Shown here one piece after another: positions 1 to 11,126 of a stretch of DNA of 41,478 nucleotides. The stretch lies in assembly GCA_016219275.1 (NCBI GenBank), contig JACRBM010000062.1, forward strand, positions 1 to 41,478, written 5' to 3'. The stretch's first letter is position 1, and each line of letters starts with the position of its first letter. Both the position numbers and the translations under genes were made by a program. Below the pieces are notes generated by a model. That model made no database searches and was not told the DNA's origin. It saw only the letters and a list, made by a program, of their open reading frames with translations. Source of the stretch: Chloroflexota bacterium. Lineage in GTDB: Bacteria > Chloroflexota > Anaerolineae > UBA4142.

Positions 1-234
1 GCGCAGTCAGTCAAGCCGGCGTGATTCATCTTCGCCGGTTTCCACGCGGTCGTCGTGTGACACTGCGAGCATTGCCCGGCAAAGTGATTCGCCGGTTTCT
101 TGTTCGAGTGACAACTCGCGCAGTCAGTCAAGCCGGCGTGATTCATCTTCGCCGGCTTCCACACGGTCGTCGTGTGACACTGTGAGCATTGCCCGGCAAA
201 GTGATTCGCCGGCTTCTTGTTCGTGTGACAACTC
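1..234 (-). repeat. 117-bp tandem coding repeats in the heme domain
   Basis: Units 1-117 and 118-234 differ at five positions by eye (about 96% identity). A third, diverged unit follows at 235-351. Because 117 is a multiple of 3, each unit adds 39 residues and two CXXCH motifs without breaking the frame. The array continues past the left edge, so its copy number is unknown. Confidence 0.9.
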
Positions 235-1028
235 GCGCAGTCGGTCAAGCCGGTGTGATTCATTTTCGCCGGCTTGAACGCAACGGTTGTGTGACATCGC
301 TCGCACTGTTGCCCGAACGCGTTCTTGTGTTGATCGGCGTGGCACGCGGCGCACGCGCGCGGCGTGCCGGCGTACTTGCCCTCGACGTGGCATTGCTCGC
401 ACGCGACATTCGCGTGCTTGCCGTCGAGTGGGAACGAATGCTGGAATCCGCCCGGCAAAGGGATCGCGCGCGGCGCGAATTCACCGGCAGAGGGCAATTG
501 CGCGACCACGGCGGCGGGCAGTTCGAGCGAGATCGCGGCGAGCGCGCGCAAATCGTCCGGCGCGATCCAGGCGTCCTCGCTGATCGCGCGGATTTGATCC
601 AACTTGTCGCCGAACCGCGCGACCAATGCGGGATCGCTCGTCAACGCGCCTTGCGCGAGCAATGCTTGTGCGCTGTTCACCAGGGTGGTCAGCGACGGCA
701 TCAATTTCGCGCGCGCGTCCGCCGGTAAATCGGCGAGCGACAGCAACGCCGCATTGAGCGCCGCGTCGAAATACGCGAGCGCGAGAATTTCGTGCGACGT
801 GCCGACGCGCGCGGTGAGATCGCGCAAACGGTACTGGGCGATGGCAACGCGCATTTCCGATTTGTTCGGCGACAGCGTGATGCGAAACGATTCGCTCATC
901 TGACGCACGGTGAACCAGGCATCGCCGGGCAATGAATTTTCCGCGACCGCGTTCGCCGCGGCGACGCCGCCGACCGAGGTGACCAGGAGGATGAGCAACG
1001 CGGAGAGACCCAGCAAAAGGAGTCGCAT
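1..1028 (-). CDS. Multiheme cytochrome c with N-terminal DUF5667-like domain (3' end beyond window)
   Basis: Electron-carrying multiheme cytochrome, probably outside the cytoplasmic membrane. The ATG at 1028 lies 2 nt after the stop of the FAD oxidoreductase, with GGGAG 8 nt upstream. About 342 codons are present; the C-terminus is cut by the window edge. Residues 1-25 form a signal peptide or anchor. Residues ~30-190 resemble DUF5667 (LPGD near the start, then a helical region). The rest is heme-binding: seven complete CXXCH motifs (CEQCH, CAACH, CERCH, then alternating CASCH and CSQCH) and the first residues of an eighth. The last part is built from 39-residue repeats, each binding two hemes and encoded by near-identical 117-bp DNA units. 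It is last in a five-gene redox operon, so it is a likely terminal electron carrier. The DUF5667-heme fusion is inferred from sequence style. Confidence 0.85.
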   Translation of the reverse strand, partial: MRLLLLGLSALLILLVTSVGGVAAANAVAENSLPGDAWFTVRQMSESFRITLSPNKSEMRVAIAQYRLRDLTARVGTSHEILALAYFDAALNAALLSLADLPADARAKLMPSLTTLVNSAQALLAQGALTSDPALVARFGDKLDQIRAISEDAWIAPDDLRALAAISLELPAAVVAQLPSAGEFAPRAIPLPGGFQHSFPLDGKHANVACEQCHVEGKYAGTPRACAACHADQHKNAFGQQCERCHTTVAFKPAKMNHTGLTDCASCHTNKKPANHFAGQCSQCHTTTVWKPAKMNHAGLTDCASCHSNKKPANHFAGQCSQCHTTTAWKPAKMNHAGLTDC

Positions 1029-1030
1029 CG

Positions 1031-2380
1031 TCAACTCCCGTGTCCGTTGCGCCGCCGATGCTGTTCGTACAAGGCGCGCACCGCGCGCGCGAGCGCGTCA
1101 TTCCCGACTTGCAATTGCGCGCGGATCGGCGTGATGTCCATGCGTTGCGCGATCACTTCGCGCAGTGGGTCCGCTAAATCCTGGTTGCCCAGGATGAGCG
1201 CGCCGGCGATCTGATCGCCGCGCAAAACGAGACGCACGGAATTATCGCCGTGATGACTCCACGCGCTCGTGTAGGGTCCACCGGGACGCGCCCACCACAC
1301 TTCGGACGAACCGCGCGATTGATATTGCAAAGTTTCATTCCCATCATCCGCATCGCGTTGTCCCGATCCCGCTTGCCCGATCGCGGTGAGATGCACGCCG
1401 AAGAGCAACGCGGCGTTGAACGGCACGCCTTTGATGTACGGCGTATGCCCGCCCGCCATGTTCGCGCCCGCCGCGCGACCCGCCGCGATGGCGGAGGGCC
1501 ACAAATCATCCACGCGATACTCGCCGCTCCAATGATCGAACACTTGCGCCGCGTCGCCCGCCGCGAAAATTCCCGGCGCGGATGATTCGAGCAATTCGTT
1601 GACGACGATCCCGCGTTCGACCGTGATGCCGGCGGCTTTTGCCAACGCGATATTCGGACGCACGCCAATCGCGACGCCGACCAGGTCGCACGCGATCCGC
1701 TGTCCGCTCGTTGTACAGACGCCGCCGACGCGTTTGCCCGCGCCGATGATCTCGGCGATCTCTTCGTTATAGTGAATCCGCACGCCAATCGCCCGCGCAT
1801 GATCCTCGACGATTTGCGATTCCGCGCGGGTGAGCAACGCCGACCAAATCGTTTTCTTGCGAAGCAGGTAATGCGTCTCGACGCCGCGATGGCACAATCC
1901 TTCCGCCATCTCCATCGCGGTGATGCCGCCGCCGACGATGACCGCGGCGCGCGCGCCGTCGTCCACGCGGCGCAAAATGTCTTGCACGTTCGCGAGATTG
2001 TCGAGGTACACGATGCCGTCCAGGTCGCTGCCGGGAAACGACGCGCGCACCGCGCTGGAACCGGTCGCGAGCAAAAGCGTATCGAAAACAATCGCGCGAC
2101 CATCGTCAAGGTTGACTGCGTGCCGCGCGACATCAAGCGACGCGACGCGCGCGTGAATCAAGTGAAAGTGTTTTTGATCGTAATAATCCGGCGTGCGACA
2201 GAAAACGCGCGTCTCAGGAATTTCGCCCATCAGCAAATACGCGAGACCCGGACGCGAGTACATCGGCACGGGTTCGTCGCTGAGGATCGTGATATGCGCG
2301 GTATGATCGCGCCGGCGAATTTCTTCCGCCGCGCTCATGCCCGCCGCGCCATTGCCGATAATGAGGTGATGCGTTGCCAT
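1031..2380 (-). CDS. FAD/NAD(P)-dependent pyridine nucleotide-disulfide-type oxidoreductase
   Basis: Cytoplasmic flavoprotein of 449 residues expected to pass electrons between NAD(P)H and the adjacent iron-sulfur protein. Residues 9-14 (GNGAAG) are the FAD-binding glycine motif, ATGSS at 105-109 is the second conserved FAD-side motif, 149-160 (GGGITAMEMAE region) is the NAD(P)-binding Rossmann fold, and GDAAQ near 277 closes the FAD site. The first two thirds resemble nitrite reductase NirB N-termini and rubredoxin reductases, but the siroheme part of NirB is absent. No redox CxxC or signal peptide is visible. The start is 2 nt after the ferredoxin stop, so translation is probably coupled. 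The substrate cannot be named from sequence. Confidence 0.88.
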   Translation of the reverse strand: MATHHLIIGNGAAGMSAAEEIRRRDHTAHITILSDEPVPMYSRPGLAYLLMGEIPETRVFCRTPDYYDQKHFHLIHARVASLDVARHAVNLDDGRAIVFDTLLLATGSSAVRASFPGSDLDGIVYLDNLANVQDILRRVDDGARAAVIVGGGITAMEMAEGLCHRGVETHYLLRKKTIWSALLTRAESQIVEDHARAIGVRIHYNEEIAEIIGAGKRVGGVCTTSGQRIACDLVGVAIGVRPNIALAKAAGITVERGIVVNELLESSAPGIFAAGDAAQVFDHWSGEYRVDDLWPSAIAAGRAAGANMAGGHTPYIKGVPFNAALLFGVHLTAIGQAGSGQRDADDGNETLQYQSRGSSEVWWARPGGPYTSAWSHHGDNSVRLVLRGDQIAGALILGNQDLADPLREVIAQRMDITPIRAQLQVGNDALARAVRALYEQHRRRNGHGS

Positions 2381-2382
2381 TT

Positions 2383-3204
2383 CTATTTGATGAGTGTTTC
2401 CGGCGAATGGAGTGGGGCAGGGGTGTGCGGGAGCAGGGGGGATGACTGTTCCCCGGCTCCCCGGCTCCCCTGCTCCGCAGGTTGGTTCTTGACAACTTCA
2501 GCGTACAACGCGCTATTCAATTGAACCAAGCCCTCTTCCGTCACGCGCAACATCGCGCCGGTTGGACATTCCTTGACGCACGCGCTCTCGCCATAGCCGC
2601 AGCAGAGATCGCATTTGTCGGCGCGAAATTTCGAGACCGGCAAAGTCGGATACGTTTCAAAGCGCAAGGTGCCGCGCGGACATTTCGCGATGCACAAGCC
2701 GCAACCGATACAGCGATCATCATTTACGGTGCGCCCCTCGCGCGCGTACTCGCGCACCTGGATTCCGACCGGGCAGTTGTGTCCGCAAATGCCGCACTGC
2801 ACGCAACGCGTTTCGTCGGTCGCGATGCGGAAATTTTGCGGCGTGTGTCCGTTCGACCCGAATGCTTCGGCGAGAATGCTCTGGAAAAATCCGCGACGTT
2901 CATCGTGACCGCGCGGCAAAAGTTTGACGACGCCGTACAGACACGCTTGTACGCACTTGTTGCACCCGCGACACGCATCCGACACGAATGTTTTCCCGTT
3001 GTGCCGCTGCATCCCGTCGAGATGACACGCGTTGACGCAAGGCGTGTCGGGACAATTGCGGCACACGTCCGGCAGTTGATACCGACCGAAACGCGGACCG
3101 CTCATCGTCATTCGTGCGCGTCCATGCCGAGTCCGGCACGCGTTGACGCACGTATCACAGTTGATGCACTTGGCAAGGTCGCGGACTAGAATTTCTCGTG
3201 CCAT
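2383..3204 (-). CDS. Polyferredoxin-like protein with six 4Fe-4S cluster motifs
   Basis: Cytoplasmic iron-sulfur electron carrier of 273 residues. Six Cys groups are visible in order: CINCDTCVNAC from residue 13, CRNCPDTPCVNAC, CRGCNKCVQAC, CVQCGICGHNC, CIGCGLCIAKC and CDLCCGYGESACVKEC. The first three resemble the DsrO/HybA/NrfC four-cluster family; the extra CxxCxxCxxxC groups extend it. No Tat or Sec signal is present, which places it in the cytoplasm beside the FAD protein encoded 2 nt downstream. The last ~25 residues (rich in S, P, H, G) are encoded by a GC-rich palindrome and are probably not part of the fold. It likely bridges the flavoprotein and the membrane b-type cytochrome. Confidence 0.88.
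   Translation of the reverse strand: MAREILVRDLAKCINCDTCVNACRTRHGRARMTMSGPRFGRYQLPDVCRNCPDTPCVNACHLDGMQRHNGKTFVSDACRGCNKCVQACLYGVVKLLPRGHDERRGFFQSILAEAFGSNGHTPQNFRIATDETRCVQCGICGHNCPVGIQVREYAREGRTVNDDRCIGCGLCIAKCPRGTLRFETYPTLPVSKFRADKCDLCCGYGESACVKECPTGAMLRVTEEGLVQLNSALYAEVVKNQPAEQGSRGAGEQSSPLLPHTPAPLHSPETLIK
2427..2478. repeat. GC-rich palindrome inside the ferredoxin 3' end
   Basis: GCGGGAGCAGGGG (2427-2439) pairs with CCCCTGCTCCGC (2467-2478) with one bulged base. The sequence between is itself C/G-rich (repeated CCCCGGCT). It looks like a dispersed intergenic repeat that has been read into the C-terminus of the ferredoxin gene. Confidence 0.7.
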
Positions 3205-3216
3205 TTATTTTTGGTG

Positions 3217-3290
3217 GTTGGAAATTGGAAATTGGAGGTTGGAAATTGGAGAGGCATCCAATTTCCAATTTCCAACGTCCAACGTCCAAC
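3217..3290. repeat. Inverted arrays of TTGGAAA-type heptamers
   Basis: The left arm 3217-3250 is made of TTGGAAA/TTGGAGG heptamers and the right arm 3257-3290 of their complements (TCCAATT, TCCAACG). The inner 12 bp (3239-3250 with 3257-3268) pair perfectly around a 6-nt loop. This fills the 94-bp gap between the 12-heme cytochrome and the ferredoxin genes. It could act as an RNA-processing or stability element in the operon mRNA. Heptameric repeats of this kind are known from cyanobacteria (STRR) and filamentous Chloroflexota. Confidence 0.8.
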
Positions 3291-3298
3291 TTCTAAAC

Positions 3299-4312
3299 TC
3301 ATTCGCGTCCGGTCGGATGACACTTGACGCAGTTTTGTAGATCGGCGATCCGTTCTTTCTGATGCGCGCGCGTAATCTCTGCCTGGGTATGTTCGTGGCA
3401 ACCATAGCAGGTGTACGTCGCGTAATTCTTTGGGTGGCAAACCGCGCACGCGGATTCTTTACCCTTGTTGCCGTGAATCAGTGGGAACGTGTGCTTGATG
3501 AGGCGCGCCGGTCGCCACGCGGCAGTCGTGTGGCACGCGGCGCAATCGTTGCCGAATTGCCCGCGATGCACTTGCGGATCGGGATGGCATCTCGCGCAGT
3601 CGCGCGGCGTGTCTCGAAAACGATTGTTGACGTGGCACTTGCCGCACGCAACCTGGGTGTGTTTGCCGGTGAGCGCGAACACAGTCGCGTGATTGAATCC
3701 CTTCATGCGATCCGCGCCGTCGTGGCACGCGAGACACGCATCGCCTACCTCGCGGCGATGGCTTGCGATGAAGGTGGCTGCCGCGAGTTGGTGGCAATCC
3801 ACGCAGGACGCCGACACTGCTTGCGCGTCCGGCCGGTTCGCTTGCGTCGAAAAGGGGTGGCACGCGCGACAGTTCATCGCCGCGCCGCTATAATCGCGCT
3901 GATGGCGCGCGAGCGTGAAACCGAATTGATTGTGCGAAAAATCGGCGATAGACGCATTCGTCAAATTCGCGTCGCGTCCTTTGTGATCGGAATGGCACGC
4001 GGTACAATTTTGCGAATCGCGCAGTGTGCCGTGCAAACCACTCGCGGCGGACAATTGATCGCGCACGGTCGTGTGGCACTCGACACAACGTGTCGCGTCC
4101 GCGCCGCGAAACGGCGCGTGGCACAGATCACACCGCGGTTCGAAATCGGCATGCGATGCAAACCCGGCGAGCGGTGGACGATTCTGCAAATTCTGCGCGC
4201 TCAACGGACCGGGATTGAACGGTGCGCCGCCGGCGATGATGCTGATGCCGGCGAGACAAATCAACATTGTAAATGTTGTGCCACATCCCAAAAACCAACC
4301 AGTTACTTTCAC
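3299..4312 (-). CDS. Dodecaheme cytochrome c, membrane-anchored
   Basis: Twelve CXXCH motifs in 337 residues (CDLCH, CVECH, CTACH, CRACH, CVDCH, CLACH, CGKCH, CARCH, CAACH, CAVCH, CYGCH, CVKCH) make this a 12-heme c-type cytochrome. Residues 10-28 form a hydrophobic signal anchor, so the heme part is outside the membrane. Start is GTG 4312, with AAGGA 7 nt upstream and 39 bp after the stop of the b-type protein. Dense heme packing (about one per 25 residues) is typical of conduits for long-range electron transfer rather than of an enzyme with a dedicated active site. It is the natural partner of the diheme membrane protein next to it. Confidence 0.9.
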   Translation of the reverse strand: MKVTGWFLGCGTTFTMLICLAGISIIAGGAPFNPGPLSAQNLQNRPPLAGFASHADFEPRCDLCHAPFRGADATRCVECHTTVRDQLSAASGLHGTLRDSQNCTACHSDHKGRDANLTNASIADFSHNQFGFTLARHQRDYSGAAMNCRACHPFSTQANRPDAQAVSASCVDCHQLAAATFIASHRREVGDACLACHDGADRMKGFNHATVFALTGKHTQVACGKCHVNNRFRDTPRDCARCHPDPQVHRGQFGNDCAACHTTAAWRPARLIKHTFPLIHGNKGKESACAVCHPKNYATYTCYGCHEHTQAEITRAHQKERIADLQNCVKCHPTGRE

Positions 4313-4351
4313 GATGTCGTCCTTGATGTGGAACGCAACGGCGTGCGTGCC

Positions 4352-5161
4352 CTACAAACCGAAACCTTTGAAGAACAGCGCCGCGATGACGTGGATGAAC
4401 GCGGACGTGAACAATGCCGCGCCGAGCGGCACATGCACCAAACGCCACACGCCCATCAAGCGATGCGCCAAACTGAGCGACGCGATTTGCCGTTCGAGTT
4501 GGCGGCGGCGATGCAACAATTTCTCCAATTCGCGGAATCGCGCGCGTTCGCTTTTGGCGAGACCGCGGGACGCCGCGTGCACGCGTCGATCGTACGCGTA
4601 ATCTTGCCACGCGCGCGCGAGCAAACCGAGCCAATCGTTTGGGTCCACTGGCGACGCGGTGACGCGCGCATTGATCGCGTTCACGAGTGCGGGACGTTGC
4701 GCCGTCCATGCATCGAGTTCGCGTTGCAACGCGTTCGCGCGCGCGGTCAGTTCATCGTGGCTGACCTCGATGCCGGCGCGCGTGCGCGGCACGGCGGTGT
4801 AAATGTAGCGTCCGACAAAACCGCTCATCACGACGATGCCGGTCATCAGCATCGCAAAGCCGGCGAGTCCGCCAACCATGAACGCGCTGTGCAACAAGAC
4901 CAGGAAGGGACCGACGATGCCGGTGAAAATATGGAACGACAACCACACGCGCAGGGGTCCCAACCAACTGAACCAGCGGATGCGCTTGCGGATCGTATAG
5001 ATCGTTTCGGTGATGAGCATTAATGTCATCCCGACGATGCCGATGAAATGTCCGAACGGATTTCCGCCGGAAGGTGTCATCAAAAACGCGTAGATCGCAT
5101 AGAAGATGGCAAGAATAAAACAAGCAAACAATGCGATCCACAATTCGAAATGTTCTTCCAC
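4352..5161 (-). CDS. Diheme b-type cytochrome membrane subunit
   Basis: Membrane protein of 269 residues with about five transmembrane helices: four in residues 8-120 and one near 243-262. Between them is a soluble Arg/Glu-rich, probably coiled-coil stretch (125-235). Two helices each carry His pairs spaced H-x13-H (HIFTGIVGPFLVLLH and HVPLGAALFTSAFIH). This spacing ligates two stacked b-hemes in cytochrome b families. The protein therefore probably moves electrons across the membrane or exchanges them with quinone. Start is GTG 5161 with GAGG 8 nt upstream; a downstream ATG is not supported. It is first in the operon, right behind the phased operator. Heme binding is inferred from the histidines. 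Confidence 0.8.
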   Translation of the reverse strand: MEEHFELWIALFACFILAIFYAIYAFLMTPSGGNPFGHFIGIVGMTLMLITETIYTIRKRIRWFSWLGPLRVWLSFHIFTGIVGPFLVLLHSAFMVGGLAGFAMLMTGIVVMSGFVGRYIYTAVPRTRAGIEVSHDELTARANALQRELDAWTAQRPALVNAINARVTASPVDPNDWLGLLARAWQDYAYDRRVHAASRGLAKSERARFRELEKLLHRRRQLERQIASLSLAHRLMGVWRLVHVPLGAALFTSAFIHVIAALFFKGFGL

Positions 5162-5606: not shown

Positions 5607-5795
5607 TCCGCGCACGAATTCTCCAGCACGATCTTCCTCTTGGAGTTCACTTCACGCAACCTTTTCCGGGCGTAGCCGGGTTTTTTGTCCATACGCGAGC
5701 GCCGCCGAACGCGCCAATGCAAAACGCGTCAGGCGCCATTGTTGCGCCAGTTGAAAGGATCAGATCCTACTCTCACCGAAAGGATAGGTGGGAAG

Positions 5796-6812
5796 ATGAA
5801 AAGAACTAGAGTCTGGATCGGTGTTGCGCTTTTGTTCACGGTCTTGAGCGTGTTCATCGCGGCTTGGCTTGGATTGACCAAATCGCCCGGCAAACCCGGA
5901 CCAAGCGACAAAATCACTCTCGGTGTTGTGCCGGCTTACTTCTCATTGCCGATCCTGGTAGCAGCCGATCAAGGATACTTTATAAAGAACGGTCTGGATG
6001 TCACCGTGAATTTTGCTGGGTCCGGGCTTGTGACGCTCGAGATGCTCGTGCGGGGGGATGTTGATTTCGCCACAGCCAGCGATTCGGGTTTCGTCGTTAA
6101 AAGCCTTGAGGCAGGCAATGAGAATTTGAGGATCATCGCCTCTCTCGCCACCAATGATTTAGAGGAGCTGGTGGCTAGACGCGATCACGGCATTCAAGCT
6201 ATAACGGATTTGAGAGGGAAGCGAGTTGGAATCCCATGGAATTCGGCGGTCCACTTTAGCTTCTACCGGTTTCTTATCCTCCAGGGCATTCCACCCGAAG
6301 AAGTAACTCTGGTTGATCTCTCATATCCAAAGTGCCTCGAAGCGATTTTGAAAGGCGAAATAGATGCGACACTCTTGTTCGATTATCTGCTCTACGACGC
6401 CAAGCAGCAGTTGGGAGTCAATGCGGTGAGTTGGCAGACGCGCAGTACACAGCCGTCATACTGGCTGTTGATTGGCAAGAGCGAATCCATCCAGAACCAA
6501 CCAGCCATCAGCCAGCGTCTGCTCACGTCGCTGTTGGAAGCGCAGGCGTTTATCCGAGCGCACCCCATTGAAGCAGAAGCCATGCTCGCCCATAGCGCGC
6601 CGCGCGACCCGGAATTTCTGCGGTCTGCGCGAGAGACCAGCCATTTTGAAATCTCACTGGAACAAGGGTTGATCGTCGCCATGGAGGACGAAGCCGACTG
6701 GAGGATAGAGAGAGGATTGGCTGAGAAGGCAGCAGCGCCAAATTACCTCCACCATATCTACATGGATGCATTGGATGCAGTTAAGCCAGAGGCAATTACG
6801 ATTTTCAGATAG
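5796..6812 (+). CDS. NMT1/THI5-like (SsuA-type) substrate-binding protein without transporter
   Basis: Extracytoplasmic ligand-binding protein of 338 residues from the SsuA/TauA/NMT1 fold. An N-terminal hydrophobic helix (residues 6-24) acts as signal peptide or anchor; there is no lipobox Cys. The mature part opens with the family pattern (ITLGVVPAYFSLPILVA, then DQGYF, GDVDFATA near residue 90). ATG 5796 is chosen because it follows AGGTGG and gives a normal signal sequence; upstream in-frame codons do not. No permease or ATPase gene is adjacent. Instead a membrane histidine kinase begins 11 nt after the stop, so the protein probably presents its ligand to that sensor. The ligand (sulfonate, pyrimidine-like or other small organic) is not readable from sequence. 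Confidence 0.85.
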   Translation: MKRTRVWIGVALLFTVLSVFIAAWLGLTKSPGKPGPSDKITLGVVPAYFSLPILVAADQGYFIKNGLDVTVNFAGSGLVTLEMLVRGDVDFATASDSGFVVKSLEAGNENLRIIASLATNDLEELVARRDHGIQAITDLRGKRVGIPWNSAVHFSFYRFLILQGIPPEEVTLVDLSYPKCLEAILKGEIDATLLFDYLLYDAKQQLGVNAVSWQTRSTQPSYWLLIGKSESIQNQPAISQRLLTSLLEAQAFIRAHPIEAEAMLAHSAPRDPEFLRSARETSHFEISLEQGLIVAMEDEADWRIERGLAEKAAAPNYLHHIYMDALDAVKPEAITIFR

Positions 6813-6823
6813 TGGAGCTGGCT

Positions 6824-9565
6824 ATGAGTATCAAGATCAGGATTCAACTAACCGTGATAACCGTTTTGTTCGCGGGTGGCATCATTTCGTTAACGGTCTT
6901 TATAACCTCCCGGCAAATGAACGCCAGTTTAGCCAGAGTGAATCTATACACCGAACTGGTCCGTAAGATTGCGGCATTGGATGTGCTCAGAGAAGAACTT
7001 TATTTCGATCCGCGAGAGCGAAGCCGTGAGCAGTGGCAAACCACTTACAACTCACTGGGAGTGCTTTTGGAAGCCATCCAGCCCGAAGATGCCGCCGAAA
7101 AATTCCGCGTGGCTTCCTTGCGCCAACACCATGGGGAATTGCGCCAGCTCTTCTCCCAATTGTTGACCGCGCGGACAAACTCTATCGAAAGCAGCTCCCT
7201 CCAGCAGGATGTGCAAGAACGATTGGCGAGTCTGTTCAATGTGAAATTTGCGGTCATGTTCGACCAAGTCTCCCGGTTAGTCGAAGAAAACCAAAAGAAA
7301 GTTGTGGCTTCTCAGCAAACAGCCAATTGGGTTGCACTATCGGTAGTCCTTGCTATGCTGATGCTGAGTGGGAGCGTCCTCCTTTTGACCAGCCATAGAA
7401 TTACCCAATCCTTCCAGAAATTGCGCGAAGGGACCAGTCTCATCAGCCGGGGCAACCTCAACCGCCGCGTTGAAATAAACGGCGCGGACGAAATCGCCGA
7501 CTTGGGTGAATCTTTCAATGCGATGGCACAACACCTGGAGCTAGATATCGCCGAGCGCGAGCGGGTGGAGGACAACCTCCGCGCGAGCGAAGCCCGCTTC
7601 CACACTCTGGTGGAGCAGGCAGCCGACGCCTTCTTTCTGCACGACACCCAGGGAACTATCCTGGACGTGAACCGTCAAGCCTGTGAAAGTTTGGGCTATA
7701 CGCGCGAGGAACTGATCGGGATGTCTCCGTTTGTTTTCGATGTGGATGTTGACCACTCCTCTACCGAACGACTTCAGGCGCGATTGGCTGCCGGCGAGGT
7801 GATTACGTTCGACACTCGTCACCGCCGGAAGGACGGGACCGTGTTCCCGGTTGAGGTTCGCATCAGCGCGCTCTGGGAGGGTGGACGACCGGTGGGCTTT
7901 TCCCTGGTCCGCGACGTCACCGAGCGCAAGCGCGCGGAGGAGGCGCTGAGAAATGTACTGCGCCACGCCCGCACCATTGTGATGCATGCCGAGGTGACCG
8001 CACCCGAAGATTGGGACCAGCACGAGCCGGAATGGGGCGCCGCGCATTATCATTGGGAATCACGCTTCTACGATAGTGAAGCGGCGCAGGAAGTGCTACC
8101 CCTCGAACTGCCGCCTGGAAAGGATTACCAGTATGGTTGGGGAGAAGCCAAACATTGCGATGACCTGGAACCGATGAGTCTGATCGCAGCCAGGGCTTTT
8201 GTCGCCGGTGCATCAAGCTGGAACCAAGAATTTCGCGCCATTGACCGATATGGTCGGTTGCACTGGTTCGCCCAAAGCGCCTCAATCAAACCTGCGGCTT
8301 ACGGGCGTTGGAGAGTGACGACGATCAACACAGACATCACCGAGCGCAAGCGCGCGGAGGAAGAGCTCGCGAGGCACCGCGAACATCTCGAAGAACTAGT
8401 AGCGGAACGCACCCAGCAATTACGGCACAGCGAAGAACACTACCGACGGCTGTTTGAAACCATGCTTCAAGGCGTAGTCTATCAGGATGCGAACGGAAAG
8501 ATCATCGCGATGAACCCGGCTACCGAGCGAATCCTGGGTGTGACCCCAGCCGACTTTCTGGGACAAACGTCGGTGGATCGCGAATCTTTGACGATCCGCG
8601 AAGATGGTTCACGCTTCCCCGGACTAGAACACCCGGCGATGATGACATTACAGACTGGACGCCAAGTGCAGGACGTGGTAATGGGAGTCTACAATCCGCG
8701 CGAGAAGGACTATCGTTGGATCACCATTAGCGCGGTGCCGATTTTTCGGCAAGGCGAAGACACCCCCTATCAAGTCTACACGCTCTTTGACGACATTACC
8801 GAGCGCAAGCGCGCCGACGAAGAGATCAGACGACTAAACCGGGATTTGCAAGACCGCGCCGTCGCGCTGGAAGCGGTGAACCAGGAACTGGAGGCGTTCG
8901 CCTACTCCGTCTCGCACGATCTGCGCGCGCCGTTGCGCCACATTGACGGGTTTTTGGAACTGTTCCAAAAACGAACCATCGCGACCCTGGATGAAAAGAG
9001 CCAACGTTATTTGGCGAACATTGCGGACGCTTCCAAGCGGATGGATACGTTGATTGACGATCTCCTTTCCTTTTCGCAAATGGGGCACAATAAAATGACC
9101 ATCTTGCGGGTGAACCTGGTAAGTCTGGTGCAGGACGTGATTCGAGAACTCGAGCCAGAGATGGCAGGCAGGAACATCCACTGGCGCATCGCCAATTTGC
9201 CGGTGGTCGTCGGTGATCGCGCCATGTTGCGGAACGTACTCTTCAACCTGATCTCGAACGCGTTGAAATTCACCAAGCCGCGTCGCCACGCCGAAATCGA
9301 AATCGGATACCAGCCGGGCAAAGATGCCGAGAGCGTGGTCTTTGTGCGCGATAATGGAGTGGGCTTTGATCCGCACTATGCCGACAAGTTGTTCGGGGTG
9401 TTTCAGCGTTTGCACCGGGCGGAAGAGTTTGAAGGCACGGGGATTGGACTGGCGAACGTTCGTCGGATCATCCAACGGCACGGCGGCAGAACCTGGGCAG
9501 AGGGACAGGTAGACCGCGGGGCGACGTTTTACTTTTCGCTCCCTCACACAGCACAAGGCGGGTAG
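6824..9565 (+). CDS. Membrane histidine kinase: TM-HAMP-PAS x3-HisKA-HATPase
   Basis: Sensor kinase of 913 residues. TM1 is near residues 5-25, TM2 at 169-189, and between them lies a ~140-residue helical extracytoplasmic sensor. Then HAMP (190-245), three PAS domains (~250-370, 376-513, 536-666; each linked by the DITERKRAE motif), HisKA (686-763; phospho-acceptor His698 in SVSHDLRAP) and HATPase_c (796-913; N box NLISNALKFT, G1 box DNGVGFD, G2 box GTGIGLANV). The ATG at 6824 is preferred over GTG 6812 because GGAG lies 7 nt upstream. It follows the substrate-binding gene by 11 nt and precedes a response regulator by 2 nt. Kinase type resembles phytochrome-like kinases that pair with Rcp1-like regulators. 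Confidence 0.92.
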   Translation: MSIKIRIQLTVITVLFAGGIISLTVFITSRQMNASLARVNLYTELVRKIAALDVLREELYFDPRERSREQWQTTYNSLGVLLEAIQPEDAAEKFRVASLRQHHGELRQLFSQLLTARTNSIESSSLQQDVQERLASLFNVKFAVMFDQVSRLVEENQKKVVASQQTANWVALSVVLAMLMLSGSVLLLTSHRITQSFQKLREGTSLISRGNLNRRVEINGADEIADLGESFNAMAQHLELDIAERERVEDNLRASEARFHTLVEQAADAFFLHDTQGTILDVNRQACESLGYTREELIGMSPFVFDVDVDHSSTERLQARLAAGEVITFDTRHRRKDGTVFPVEVRISALWEGGRPVGFSLVRDVTERKRAEEALRNVLRHARTIVMHAEVTAPEDWDQHEPEWGAAHYHWESRFYDSEAAQEVLPLELPPGKDYQYGWGEAKHCDDLEPMSLIAARAFVAGASSWNQEFRAIDRYGRLHWFAQSASIKPAAYGRWRVTTINTDITERKRAEEELARHREHLEELVAERTQQLRHSEEHYRRLFETMLQGVVYQDANGKIIAMNPATERILGVTPADFLGQTSVDRESLTIREDGSRFPGLEHPAMMTLQTGRQVQDVVMGVYNPREKDYRWITISAVPIFRQGEDTPYQVYTLFDDITERKRADEEIRRLNRDLQDRAVALEAVNQELEAFAYSVSHDLRAPLRHIDGFLELFQKRTIATLDEKSQRYLANIADASKRMDTLIDDLLSFSQMGHNKMTILRVNLVSLVQDVIRELEPEMAGRNIHWRIANLPVVVGDRAMLRNVLFNLISNALKFTKPRRHAEIEIGYQPGKDAESVVFVRDNGVGFDPHYADKLFGVFQRLHRAEEFEGTGIGLANVRRIIQRHGGRTWAEGQVDRGATFYFSLPHTAQGG

Positions 9566-9567
9566 GC

Positions 9568-10020
9568 ATGGAAACACTCCGGCGTATTCTCTTGGTCGAA
9601 GATGATCCAAAAGACATTGAGCTAATGCTCAACGCGCTCGGCGAATACAACCTGGCGAACGAGGTTGTCGTCGCGCGCGACGGCGTCGAAGCGCTGAATT
9701 ACTTGTACCGTAGAGAAATCTTCGCGCAGCGTCCCGAAGGCAAACCCGCGGTGATTCTGCTCGATCTCAAAATGCCGAAGCTCGATGGCATCCAGGTTTT
9801 GCGGCAACTCAAATCGGACGAACAGATGCGTTCGGTACCGGTGGTCATCCTGACCTCCTCGCGCACCGCGCGCGATTTGGACGATTGCTACCAACTCGGC
9901 GTCAATGCCTACGTCGTGAAACCAGTGCGCTTTACGGAATTTGTACTAGCGGTCAAGGCAATCGGTGTGTTTTGGGTGTTGATCAACGAACCACCGCCCG
10001 GCAGTTTACCGAAACAATGA
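9568..10020 (+). CDS. Single-domain response regulator (Rcp1-like)
   Basis: CheY-like receiver of 150 residues with no output domain. The acidic pocket (VEDD near residues 10-13), phospho-acceptor Asp66 (LLDLKMPK), a Thr/Ser at ILTSS and Lys in VVKPVR are all present. The longer alpha4-beta5 region and C-terminal extension match Rcp1-type regulators of PAS/phytochrome kinases. It starts 2 nt after the kinase stop, so it is the cognate partner. Its target is unknown; the downstream HD-GYP protein has no receiver, so signalling would need an intermediate. The 119-bp mobile element is inserted exactly at its stop codon. Confidence 0.92.
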   Translation: METLRRILLVEDDPKDIELMLNALGEYNLANEVVVARDGVEALNYLYRREIFAQRPEGKPAVILLDLKMPKLDGIQVLRQLKSDEQMRSVPVVILTSSRTARDLDDCYQLGVNAYVVKPVRFTEFVLAVKAIGVFWVLINEPPPGSLPKQ

Positions 10021-10027
10021 ACGGGTC

Positions 10028-10146
10028 GGGTGTGCGTCAAGTTTTTGGGTGGTGAAAAAACCTTGCGCAGGTTGAACGGCAATCAAATTTGATTTGTCGT
10101 CAAAACCTTCGCAAGGTTGAGTGTTCCAAAATTCCAACGGACACCC
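10028..10146 (+). mobile_element. 119-bp MITE-like element, copy A
   Basis: The left end is GGGTGTGCGTCAA. The right end is a degraded copy of its complement, ending GGACACCC. It is flanked by a perfect 9-bp duplication GAACGGGTC (10019-10027 and 10147-10155). It matches copy B (39646-39764, opposite orientation) at about 113 of 119 positions, with the same length. Inside are two AACCTT-N3-AAGGTT hairpins. There is no coding capacity, so transposition in trans by an unseen transposase is inferred. Confidence 0.9.
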
Positions 10147-10190
10147 GAACGGGTCATGCGACTTGCGACGAGCAAGAGGATTGGCATAAA

Positions 10191-11126
10191 ATGGGCAACT
10201 TGATTCGCATTCTACATTTGGAAAATGATGCTGGAGACTTGGAACTTGTGCGGGCAACGCTAGAATCATCCGACCTGACGTGTCAAATCACCGCGGTTCA
10301 GACGCGTGACGAATTCAGCCAAGCGTTGAGCCAGGGTGGGTACGATGTCATCTTCGCGGATTATCGGTTGCCGGGGTACGACGGCAGGTCCGCGTTGCGG
10401 TTGACGCTGGAACGTTGTCCCGAAGTGCCCTTTATCTTCGTCTCCGGCACGATTGGCGAAGACGCGGCGATCAACGGTCTGACGGACGGCGCAACCGATT
10501 ATGTGCTCAAGCAAAAACTGTCGCGCCTCGTGCCGGCGGTCACACGCGCGCTGCGCGAAGCGGAGAACCGGCGCGCGCGCAAACGCGCGGAAGAATCGCT
10601 GAAAAAACAGTACTCCACTTTGCGAAGTATTATTGACAGCACGAACGCGCTCATCTTTTCAGTAGACCAACAATATCGTTACACAAGCTTCAACAAGGGA
10701 CATGCCGCAGTGATGCACGCGCTGTACGGAGCGGAAATCGAAACGGGGCGCAGTATATTGGGTTATATGACTGTAACGGTGGATCGCGAGATCGCACACC
10801 GCAACTTGGATCGGGCGCTCGCTGGAGAGCAACTGGTGGAGGAAGCCTACTCGGGTGAAGAACTCAAGTCGCGGCGTTATTTTCAAGTTTCGCACAGTCC
10901 CATCAAAACCGAAATGGACGAGGTCATCGGCGTTGCCGTTATTTCGCAAGACCTGACCGAACGCAAACACGCCGAAGAGAAAATCAAACATCAACTCAAT
11001 GAACTCCAGCGTTGGCACGATGTTACGCTTAACCGGGAAGGACGCGTTCAAGAGCTCAAGCACGAGGTCAACCAGTTGTGCGCTCGGCTCGGTGAACCGC
11101 TTCGTTACCCTAGTCAGGCAGGGTGA
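10191..11126 (+). CDS. Receiver-PAS response regulator with coiled-coil tail
   Basis: Protein of 311 residues: receiver (1-125; phospho-acceptor Asp57 in FADYRLPG, SGT switch and Lys in VLKQKL), PAS (about 140-265, closing with DLTERKHAE) and a short helical C-terminus (270-305). It has no kinase, DNA-binding or cyclase domain, so it is an adaptor-type regulator. ATG 10191 follows AGAGGA by about 10 nt and starts the receiver fold directly. Removing the MITE brings this gene to within about 50 bp of the upstream regulator, so the two were probably co-transcribed from one promoter. Confidence 0.88.
   Translation: MGNLIRILHLENDAGDLELVRATLESSDLTCQITAVQTRDEFSQALSQGGYDVIFADYRLPGYDGRSALRLTLERCPEVPFIFVSGTIGEDAAINGLTDGATDYVLKQKLSRLVPAVTRALREAENRRARKRAEESLKKQYSTLRSIIDSTNALIFSVDQQYRYTSFNKGHAAVMHALYGAEIETGRSILGYMTVTVDREIAHRNLDRALAGEQLVEEAYSGEELKSRRYFQVSHSPIKTEMDEVIGVAVISQDLTERKHAEEKIKHQLNELQRWHDVTLNREGRVQELKHEVNQLCARLGEPLRYPSQAG

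Follow-up and report, generated by a model that had tools for sequence, protein, structure and literature searches.

Does the run of redox genes at one end of this Chloroflexota contig form a functional unit and, if so, where would it carry electrons? The window analysed here, 41,478 nucleotides long, is the whole of contig G000:C62; the genome that it belongs to measures 6.16 Mb and is 97.9% complete, and its relatives are Chloroflexota MAGs. Five genes fill its positions 3–5161, all on the minus strand and read from 5161 towards 1: a diheme b-type membrane cytochrome (4352..5161; 269 aa, GTG start, five predicted helices), a 12-heme c cytochrome, hereafter c12 (3299..4312; 337 aa), a six-cluster [4Fe-4S] ferredoxin (2383..3204; 273 aa), an FAD/NAD(P) flavoprotein (1031..2380; 449 aa) and the N-terminal part of a tandem-repeat multiheme c cytochrome (3..1034; 344 aa, open at the contig start). 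The initial annotation had noticed H-x13-H pairs in two helices of the membrane protein, 12 CXXCH motifs in one cytochrome and at least seven in the other, six 4Fe-4S groups and an FAD/NAD fold, all of which were borne out: the b protein carries H77-x13-H91 and H243-x13-H257, c12 has exactly 12 CXXCH and the ferredoxin exactly six Cys quartets, seven CXXCH are visible in the second cytochrome before the contig ends, and the flavoprotein matches Pyr_redox_2 (E 1.3e-50). The same annotation described co-directional genes with gaps of 2–94 bp; this held for the strand and for the successive gaps of 39, 94 and 2 bp, and failed at the last junction, which is a 4-bp overlap.

The gene set is a conserved cassette rather than a chance run. 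A profile scan of the genome collection with the aligned b proteins gave 80 loci, nearly all in Chloroflexota (Anaerolineae, Caldilineales, Oscillochloris, Chloroploca, Viridilinea) and several in Planctomycetes. The synteny count was limited to the 51 b loci flanked on both sides by 2.5 kb or more, where the neighbours on the same strand include a ferredoxin (51/51), the FAD protein (50/51) and a c cytochrome that has 7 or more CXXCH (51/51). Conserved synteny had been set beforehand as a test that could refute the initial annotation; the genes were found to be kept together, with all three partners beside b in 50 of 51 loci and cytochromes carrying 7 to 47 heme motifs. Up to 6.5 kb from b homologs, each 100 kb of sequence holds 11.5 reading frames with at least 7 CXXCH; at greater distances the figure is 1.4.

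The order Fd-FAD-b-c is found at 28 loci, and at six more with a second c cytochrome, while the window's type, b-c-Fd-FAD-c, is found at seven, plus one. Misassembly as the cause of the gene order was ruled out, since the same order is kept in unrelated assemblies. In the b-protein tree, which is rooted at the midpoint only, the order b-c-Fd-FAD-c lies in one supported clade, and the four Planctomycete sequences group together next to the Oscillochloridaceae. Among 400 Chloroflexota genomes sampled, 62 gave a b-protein match, about half of the matches being weak and distant and about half strong. Of 13 further genomes listed for the family that the window belongs to, 3 have the cassette, and its distribution is therefore patchy. 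Note that the b protein also has remote matches in many large Chloroflexota genomes (E about 1e-12 to 1e-23); most are frames of 300–350 aa, and they align mainly over the N-terminal part.

In the b protein, TM3 bears W73x3H77x13H91, TM4 S113GxxG117 and TM5 W239x3H243x13H257. The four His, both Trp and the SGxxG residues are invariant in 50/50 relatives, so that every one of them has two WX3HX13H motifs plus SGXXG. In the AlphaFold model of the window protein (pLDDT 89.9), helices span residues 5–27, 35–60, 70–91 and 98–122, followed by a long helix ending at 266; the chain stops a few residues past TM5, and there is no fused C-terminal FAD/NADPH dehydrogenase domain. The TM2–TM3 and TM4–TM5 loops are rich in Arg and Lys and, by the positive-inside rule, are predicted to be cytoplasmic. 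Each His-bearing helix would therefore have one His near each face of the membrane, H77/H243 forming the inner heme site and H91/H257 the outer one. Most members have an insert of ~100 residues between TM4 and TM5, reduced to just 15–18 residues in 10/50; that of the window protein (~100 residues) is charged, mostly helical and predicted to be cytoplasmic.

The window b protein matched no family among the Pfam and NCBIfam models, and the matches of its relatives were all below cut-off: Ni_hydr_CYTB matched weakly in 28/50 members and Pfam Ferric_reduct in 7/50 (best E 0.0012), the window protein being unmatched by the latter. A search of PDB sequences with the b profile returned nothing meaningful. 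Submitted to Foldseek, the window model retrieved coiled-coil and F-BAR entries, which were set aside as an artefact of the ~100-residue helical insert, and a short-form relative was folded in its place (AlphaFold, pLDDT 88.9). Diheme b cytochromes came out on top for this relative when Foldseek's own hits were re-examined with VIA-align, and not in the Foldseek ranking itself: E. coli superoxide oxidase b561 (Z 9.9, 132 aligned residues, 3.5 Å) and the NADPH oxidase SpNOX (Z 9.3, 117 aligned, 3.1 Å), with the b6f cytochrome b6, cytochrome b561 and STEAP2 as the other top neighbours and E. coli hydrogenase-1 cytochrome b also among them. These Z values are below ~13, the level that the tool regards as safe for helical bundles, and unrelated bundles rank close behind; the comparison thus supports, and does not prove, a b561/NOX diheme bundle.

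On the other side of the putative inner-to-outer path stand the two c cytochromes. c12 has a hydrophobic N-terminal segment and C7/C3-type heme modules; we found no relative of it in the PDB, its similarity to the DmsE, HmcA and NrfH models is weak, partial and far below cut-off, and its C-terminal end resembles, by eye, that of the repeat cytochrome. The latter consists of a hydrophobic N-terminus, a domain of ~200 residues devoid of heme motifs and then 39-residue repeats, each with two hemes spaced by 17 and 22 residues. Its N-terminal domain weakly resembles DUF5667 (best E 0.042), and the ~200-residue heme-free region recurs at other loci, nearly always in cytochromes with heme repeats. 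The repeats of the truncated protein match the start of contig C72 of the same genome, which encodes a C-terminal part with 11 CXXCH in the same style. No exact overlap between contigs C62 and C72 was found, as expected if the assembly broke inside the repeat; judging from the repeats, the remainder of the gene is probably at G000:C72:1-654, which would give at least 18 hemes if the contigs join.

Complete relatives indicate what the full-length protein may look like. That of locus L022 (genome G010) has 1082 aa and 44 CXXCH, and that of L023 (G011) 789 aa and 29 CXXCH, so that the cytochrome pairs of these cassettes, in which the diheme repeats measure 39 aa, comprise 12 plus 44 and 12 plus 29 hemes. 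The L022 units share a mean identity of 73% at the protein level and 71% at the DNA level. This 44-heme protein has one heme motif per ~24.6 aa, and its His residues outside CXXCH are at least as numerous as its heme motifs, as expected for bis-His hemes. The largest cytochrome in the set, with 1155 aa and 47 CXXCH, is encoded after another cassette (L088:12413-15880).

Two cytoplasmic candidates could feed the membrane protein. The closest solved relative of the FAD protein is AorC (8c0z_E, E 1.8e-48), and its best NCBIfam model is PadH, whose cut-off of 475 bits it does not pass (185.5 bits). Its second Rossmann motif reads GGGITA with an Arg at +24, and GxGxxA plus this Arg is present in 68/68 scored relatives, whereas the aligned AorC has GxGxxG and Glu. 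In such a fold, GxGxxA with Arg points to NADP(H), and going by these residues the protein most likely prefers NADPH. In AorC, FAD receives electrons from an Fe4S4 chain and passes them to NAD+ (PMC12096430). The Cys quartets of the window ferredoxin lie at residues 13, 48, 78, 134, 165 and 198, and no signal peptide was seen by eye. Typical cassette ferredoxins have roughly 85–125 residues and two quartets; the short 2[4Fe-4S] form aligns to residues ~126–183 of the window protein, a longer ferredoxin containing this module occurs in the window, L022, L023, L024 and L029, and the other quartets of the long form resemble HycB/DmsB-type four-cluster proteins. Since most cassettes carry only the short two-quartet module, the six-cluster ferredoxin is, as these alignments indicate, a local elaboration that arose by insertion or fusion.

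We consider it probable, at roughly 60%, that the operon is a transmembrane electron conduit leading from NAD(P)H through FAD, the ferredoxin and the b hemes to c-heme wires outside. The cytoplasmic flavoprotein would oxidize NAD(P)H, most likely NADPH, and reduce the ferredoxin, which would act as the link to H77/H243, the inner heme site of the b protein. Transfer from there to the outer heme (H91/H257) would constitute the membrane crossing, after which electrons would pass to c12 at the outer face of the membrane and then to the tandem diheme-repeat cytochrome, a heme wire that would conduct them across the cell wall; the heme density and repeat structure of this protein suggest such a wall-spanning role. 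The final acceptor would be extracellular, be it a mineral, a partner cell or a soluble oxidant. We infer a net outward direction on two grounds: electrons that leave a negative-inside cell go downhill, and the set has no energy-coupling subunit. As outward flow would dissipate the membrane potential, a valve for surplus reductant fits better than a proton-pumping site. The genome also encodes complex I and heme-copper oxidases, and electron export would therefore not be its only outlet.

That the set links a cytoplasmic NAD(P)H/ferredoxin pool to extracytoplasmic hemes had been proposed in the initial annotation, and the proposal gained support from the synteny (50/51), the inner and outer His pairs, the AorC/PadH-like flavoprotein and the low number of residues per heme in the repeat cytochromes. 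Also counted in favour of the conduit are the invariant b motifs, the b561/NOX neighbours, the ~24.6 aa per heme and a gene for the NADH-responsive redox-sensing repressor Rex, located on the same strand ~140 bp downstream of one cassette (L054:12425-13036). Against it counts that quinone-reactive cytochromes have this b fold too.

By its motifs, the cassette looks like a porin-free relative of PCC3/PCC4, the systems proposed for neutrophilic iron oxidizers, which combine an inner-membrane protein with a porin and with very heme-rich repeat cytochromes (PMC5566968). The nearest idea had initially been the b/c modules of metal reducers; this was sharpened, PCC3/PCC4 being closest by motif and not Geobacter Cbc. 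Indeed, compared by published motifs, the PCC3 inner-membrane protein likewise has five helices, with SGXXG on TM4 and one WX3HX13H motif on each of TM3 and TM5, and the cassette too has two many-heme cytochromes with heme-bearing repeats and few residues per heme. By contrast, PCC3 includes a porin and none was found with the cassette: the complete L022 operon, to which the search was confined, holds only the five genes and no porin gene. The cassette adds a ferredoxin and an FAD protein, neither of which is mentioned in the PCC3 text, whereas PCC4 subgroup II has one Fe-S protein. Moreover, PCC3 occurs mainly in Proteobacteria, and the cassette in Chloroflexota, which are described as single-membrane, and in some Planctomycetes. 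In Geobacter Cbc complexes, too, one operon unites a b cytochrome with an Fe-S protein and c cytochromes, but Cbc4 and Cbc5, as described, are set apart by having no such flavoprotein. Large multiheme cytochromes of variable heme number and without a porin–cytochrome complex have been reported in Anaerolineales (PMC7399161); the host group is that of the cassette, and no b cytochrome or inner-membrane partner is mentioned there.

NADPH oxidases and ferric reductases (e.g. SpNOX, 8qt6) share with the cassette two hemes held by His pairs of TM3 and TM5 and, as we assume for the cassette, an outward electron flow from cytoplasmic NADPH and flavin. They differ in having a fused FAD/NADPH domain in place of a ferredoxin and a separate Pyr_redox_2 flavoprotein of another fold, and in passing electrons to O2 or a ferric chelate instead of c hemes. 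With AorC and PadH, which belong to tungsten aldehyde oxidoreductase and phenylglyoxylate dehydrogenase and connect an Fe-S chain to NAD, the cassette shares a Pyr_redox_2 protein encoded together with a polyferredoxin; its own FAD protein has GxGxxA and Arg rather than the NADH-type GxGxxG and Glu, and its partner is a membrane b cytochrome and not a dehydrogenase. The initial annotation did not recognize the whole combination as a named complex, and we found no description or name for it in the open-access literature, to which the search was confined. What is new here is the joining of a PCC3-type b signature and wire cytochromes to a ferredoxin and an NADPH-type flavoprotein, with no porin found; the kinds of parts were already known. 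The PCC3-type b protein may accordingly serve as a general adaptor, connectable to a cytoplasmic NAD(P)H/ferredoxin module.

The main rival to the conduit is a quinone-linked module, in which the b protein would trade electrons with menaquinone, the ferredoxin and flavoprotein reducing the quinone or a quinol feeding the c cytochromes. Hydrogenase and formate dehydrogenase b subunits exchange electrons with menaquinone, and b561-type cytochromes, b6 and hydrogenase-1 cytochrome b among the fold neighbours, together with the weak Ni_hydr_CYTB matches, argue for this possibility. In addition, quinone contact was proposed for the PCC3/PCC4 protein by He et al. 2017 (PMC5566968). A simple quinol oxidase, however, needs no soluble ferredoxin or flavoprotein, yet both genes are almost always present. 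Furthermore, both heme pairs are on TM3 and TM5 as in NOX, unlike those of FdnI/HydC-type b subunits, whose heme ligands are spread over other helices. On balance, we regard the quinone-linked module as unlikely, albeit less so than electron uptake, in which Fe(II), partner cells or cathodes would deliver electrons through the c wires and the b protein to ferredoxin and NADP+ and so provide the cell with reductant. Uptake would accord with the NADPH-type signature of the flavoprotein, the occurrence of the cassette in phototrophic Chloroploca and Oscillochloris, the identity of the b motifs with those of the iron-oxidizer clusters and the bidirectional (anodic and cathodic) electron transfer of the Chloroflexi isolate Ardenticatena maritima (PMC5808234). 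We nevertheless hold it to be improbable: from a donor at the level of iron to ferredoxin/NADP+, against the membrane potential, the path would be strongly uphill, and we found nothing in the cassette that could drive it.

We give even less credence to a respiratory reductase acting on a soluble compound at a specialized heme of one c cytochrome. The freely varying heme number (7 to 47) is unlike that of a catalytic cytochrome, and the His residues available besides the heme motifs give no indication of an unligated heme; the resemblance of c12 to DmsE, HmcA and NrfH, far below cut-off as it is, and the NMT1-like binding protein and histidine kinase adjoining the window's operon and that of one relative are the points that speak for it. 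Returning to the conduit, a more specific version of it is tentative, at somewhat under even odds: an unnamed, split NADPH-oxidase-like exporter, in which flavoprotein, ferredoxin and diheme b protein would together take the place of the fused oxidase and supply wires that hold up to 40 or more hemes, giving single-membrane Chloroflexota direct extracellular transfer from NADPH/ferredoxin with neither a quinone step nor a porin. Chloroflexota genomes are predicted to be single-membrane (PMC3971608), and extracellular electron transfer in this phylum has been demonstrated in one isolate, Ardenticatena, with no molecular path in the literature searched. If the conduit is real, the cassette offers a testable molecular path for this process and explains porin-free export by cells described as having no outer membrane.

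Several observations concern the surroundings of the cassette. Divergent to the operon, positions 5685–11126 of the window encode an NMT1-like substrate-binding protein, a PAS histidine kinase and two response regulators; because L022 has a similar divergent set (three NMT1-like copies, kinase, regulators), it may be a sensory unit of the cassette. A SulP-family sulfate permease gene separates the b and c12 genes at L016:12776-14443 (G001). Upstream of another cassette, L080:6264-7525 holds a gene for ApbE (FAD:protein FMN transferase) and a small gene, a hint that some lineages may have a flavinylated partner. The source genome itself has a paralogous set with no b protein beside it (L014:2864-10760, on G000:C76), whose FAD protein, six-cluster ferredoxin and 12-heme cytochrome are 72%, 66% and 56% identical to those of the window, and which continues with a 1033-aa 7-heme and then a 490-aa 16-heme cytochrome. 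Finally, several of the 15 molybdopterin oxidoreductase matches in this genome (contigs C33, C40 and C9) have one in-frame TGA and are possible selenocysteine enzymes.
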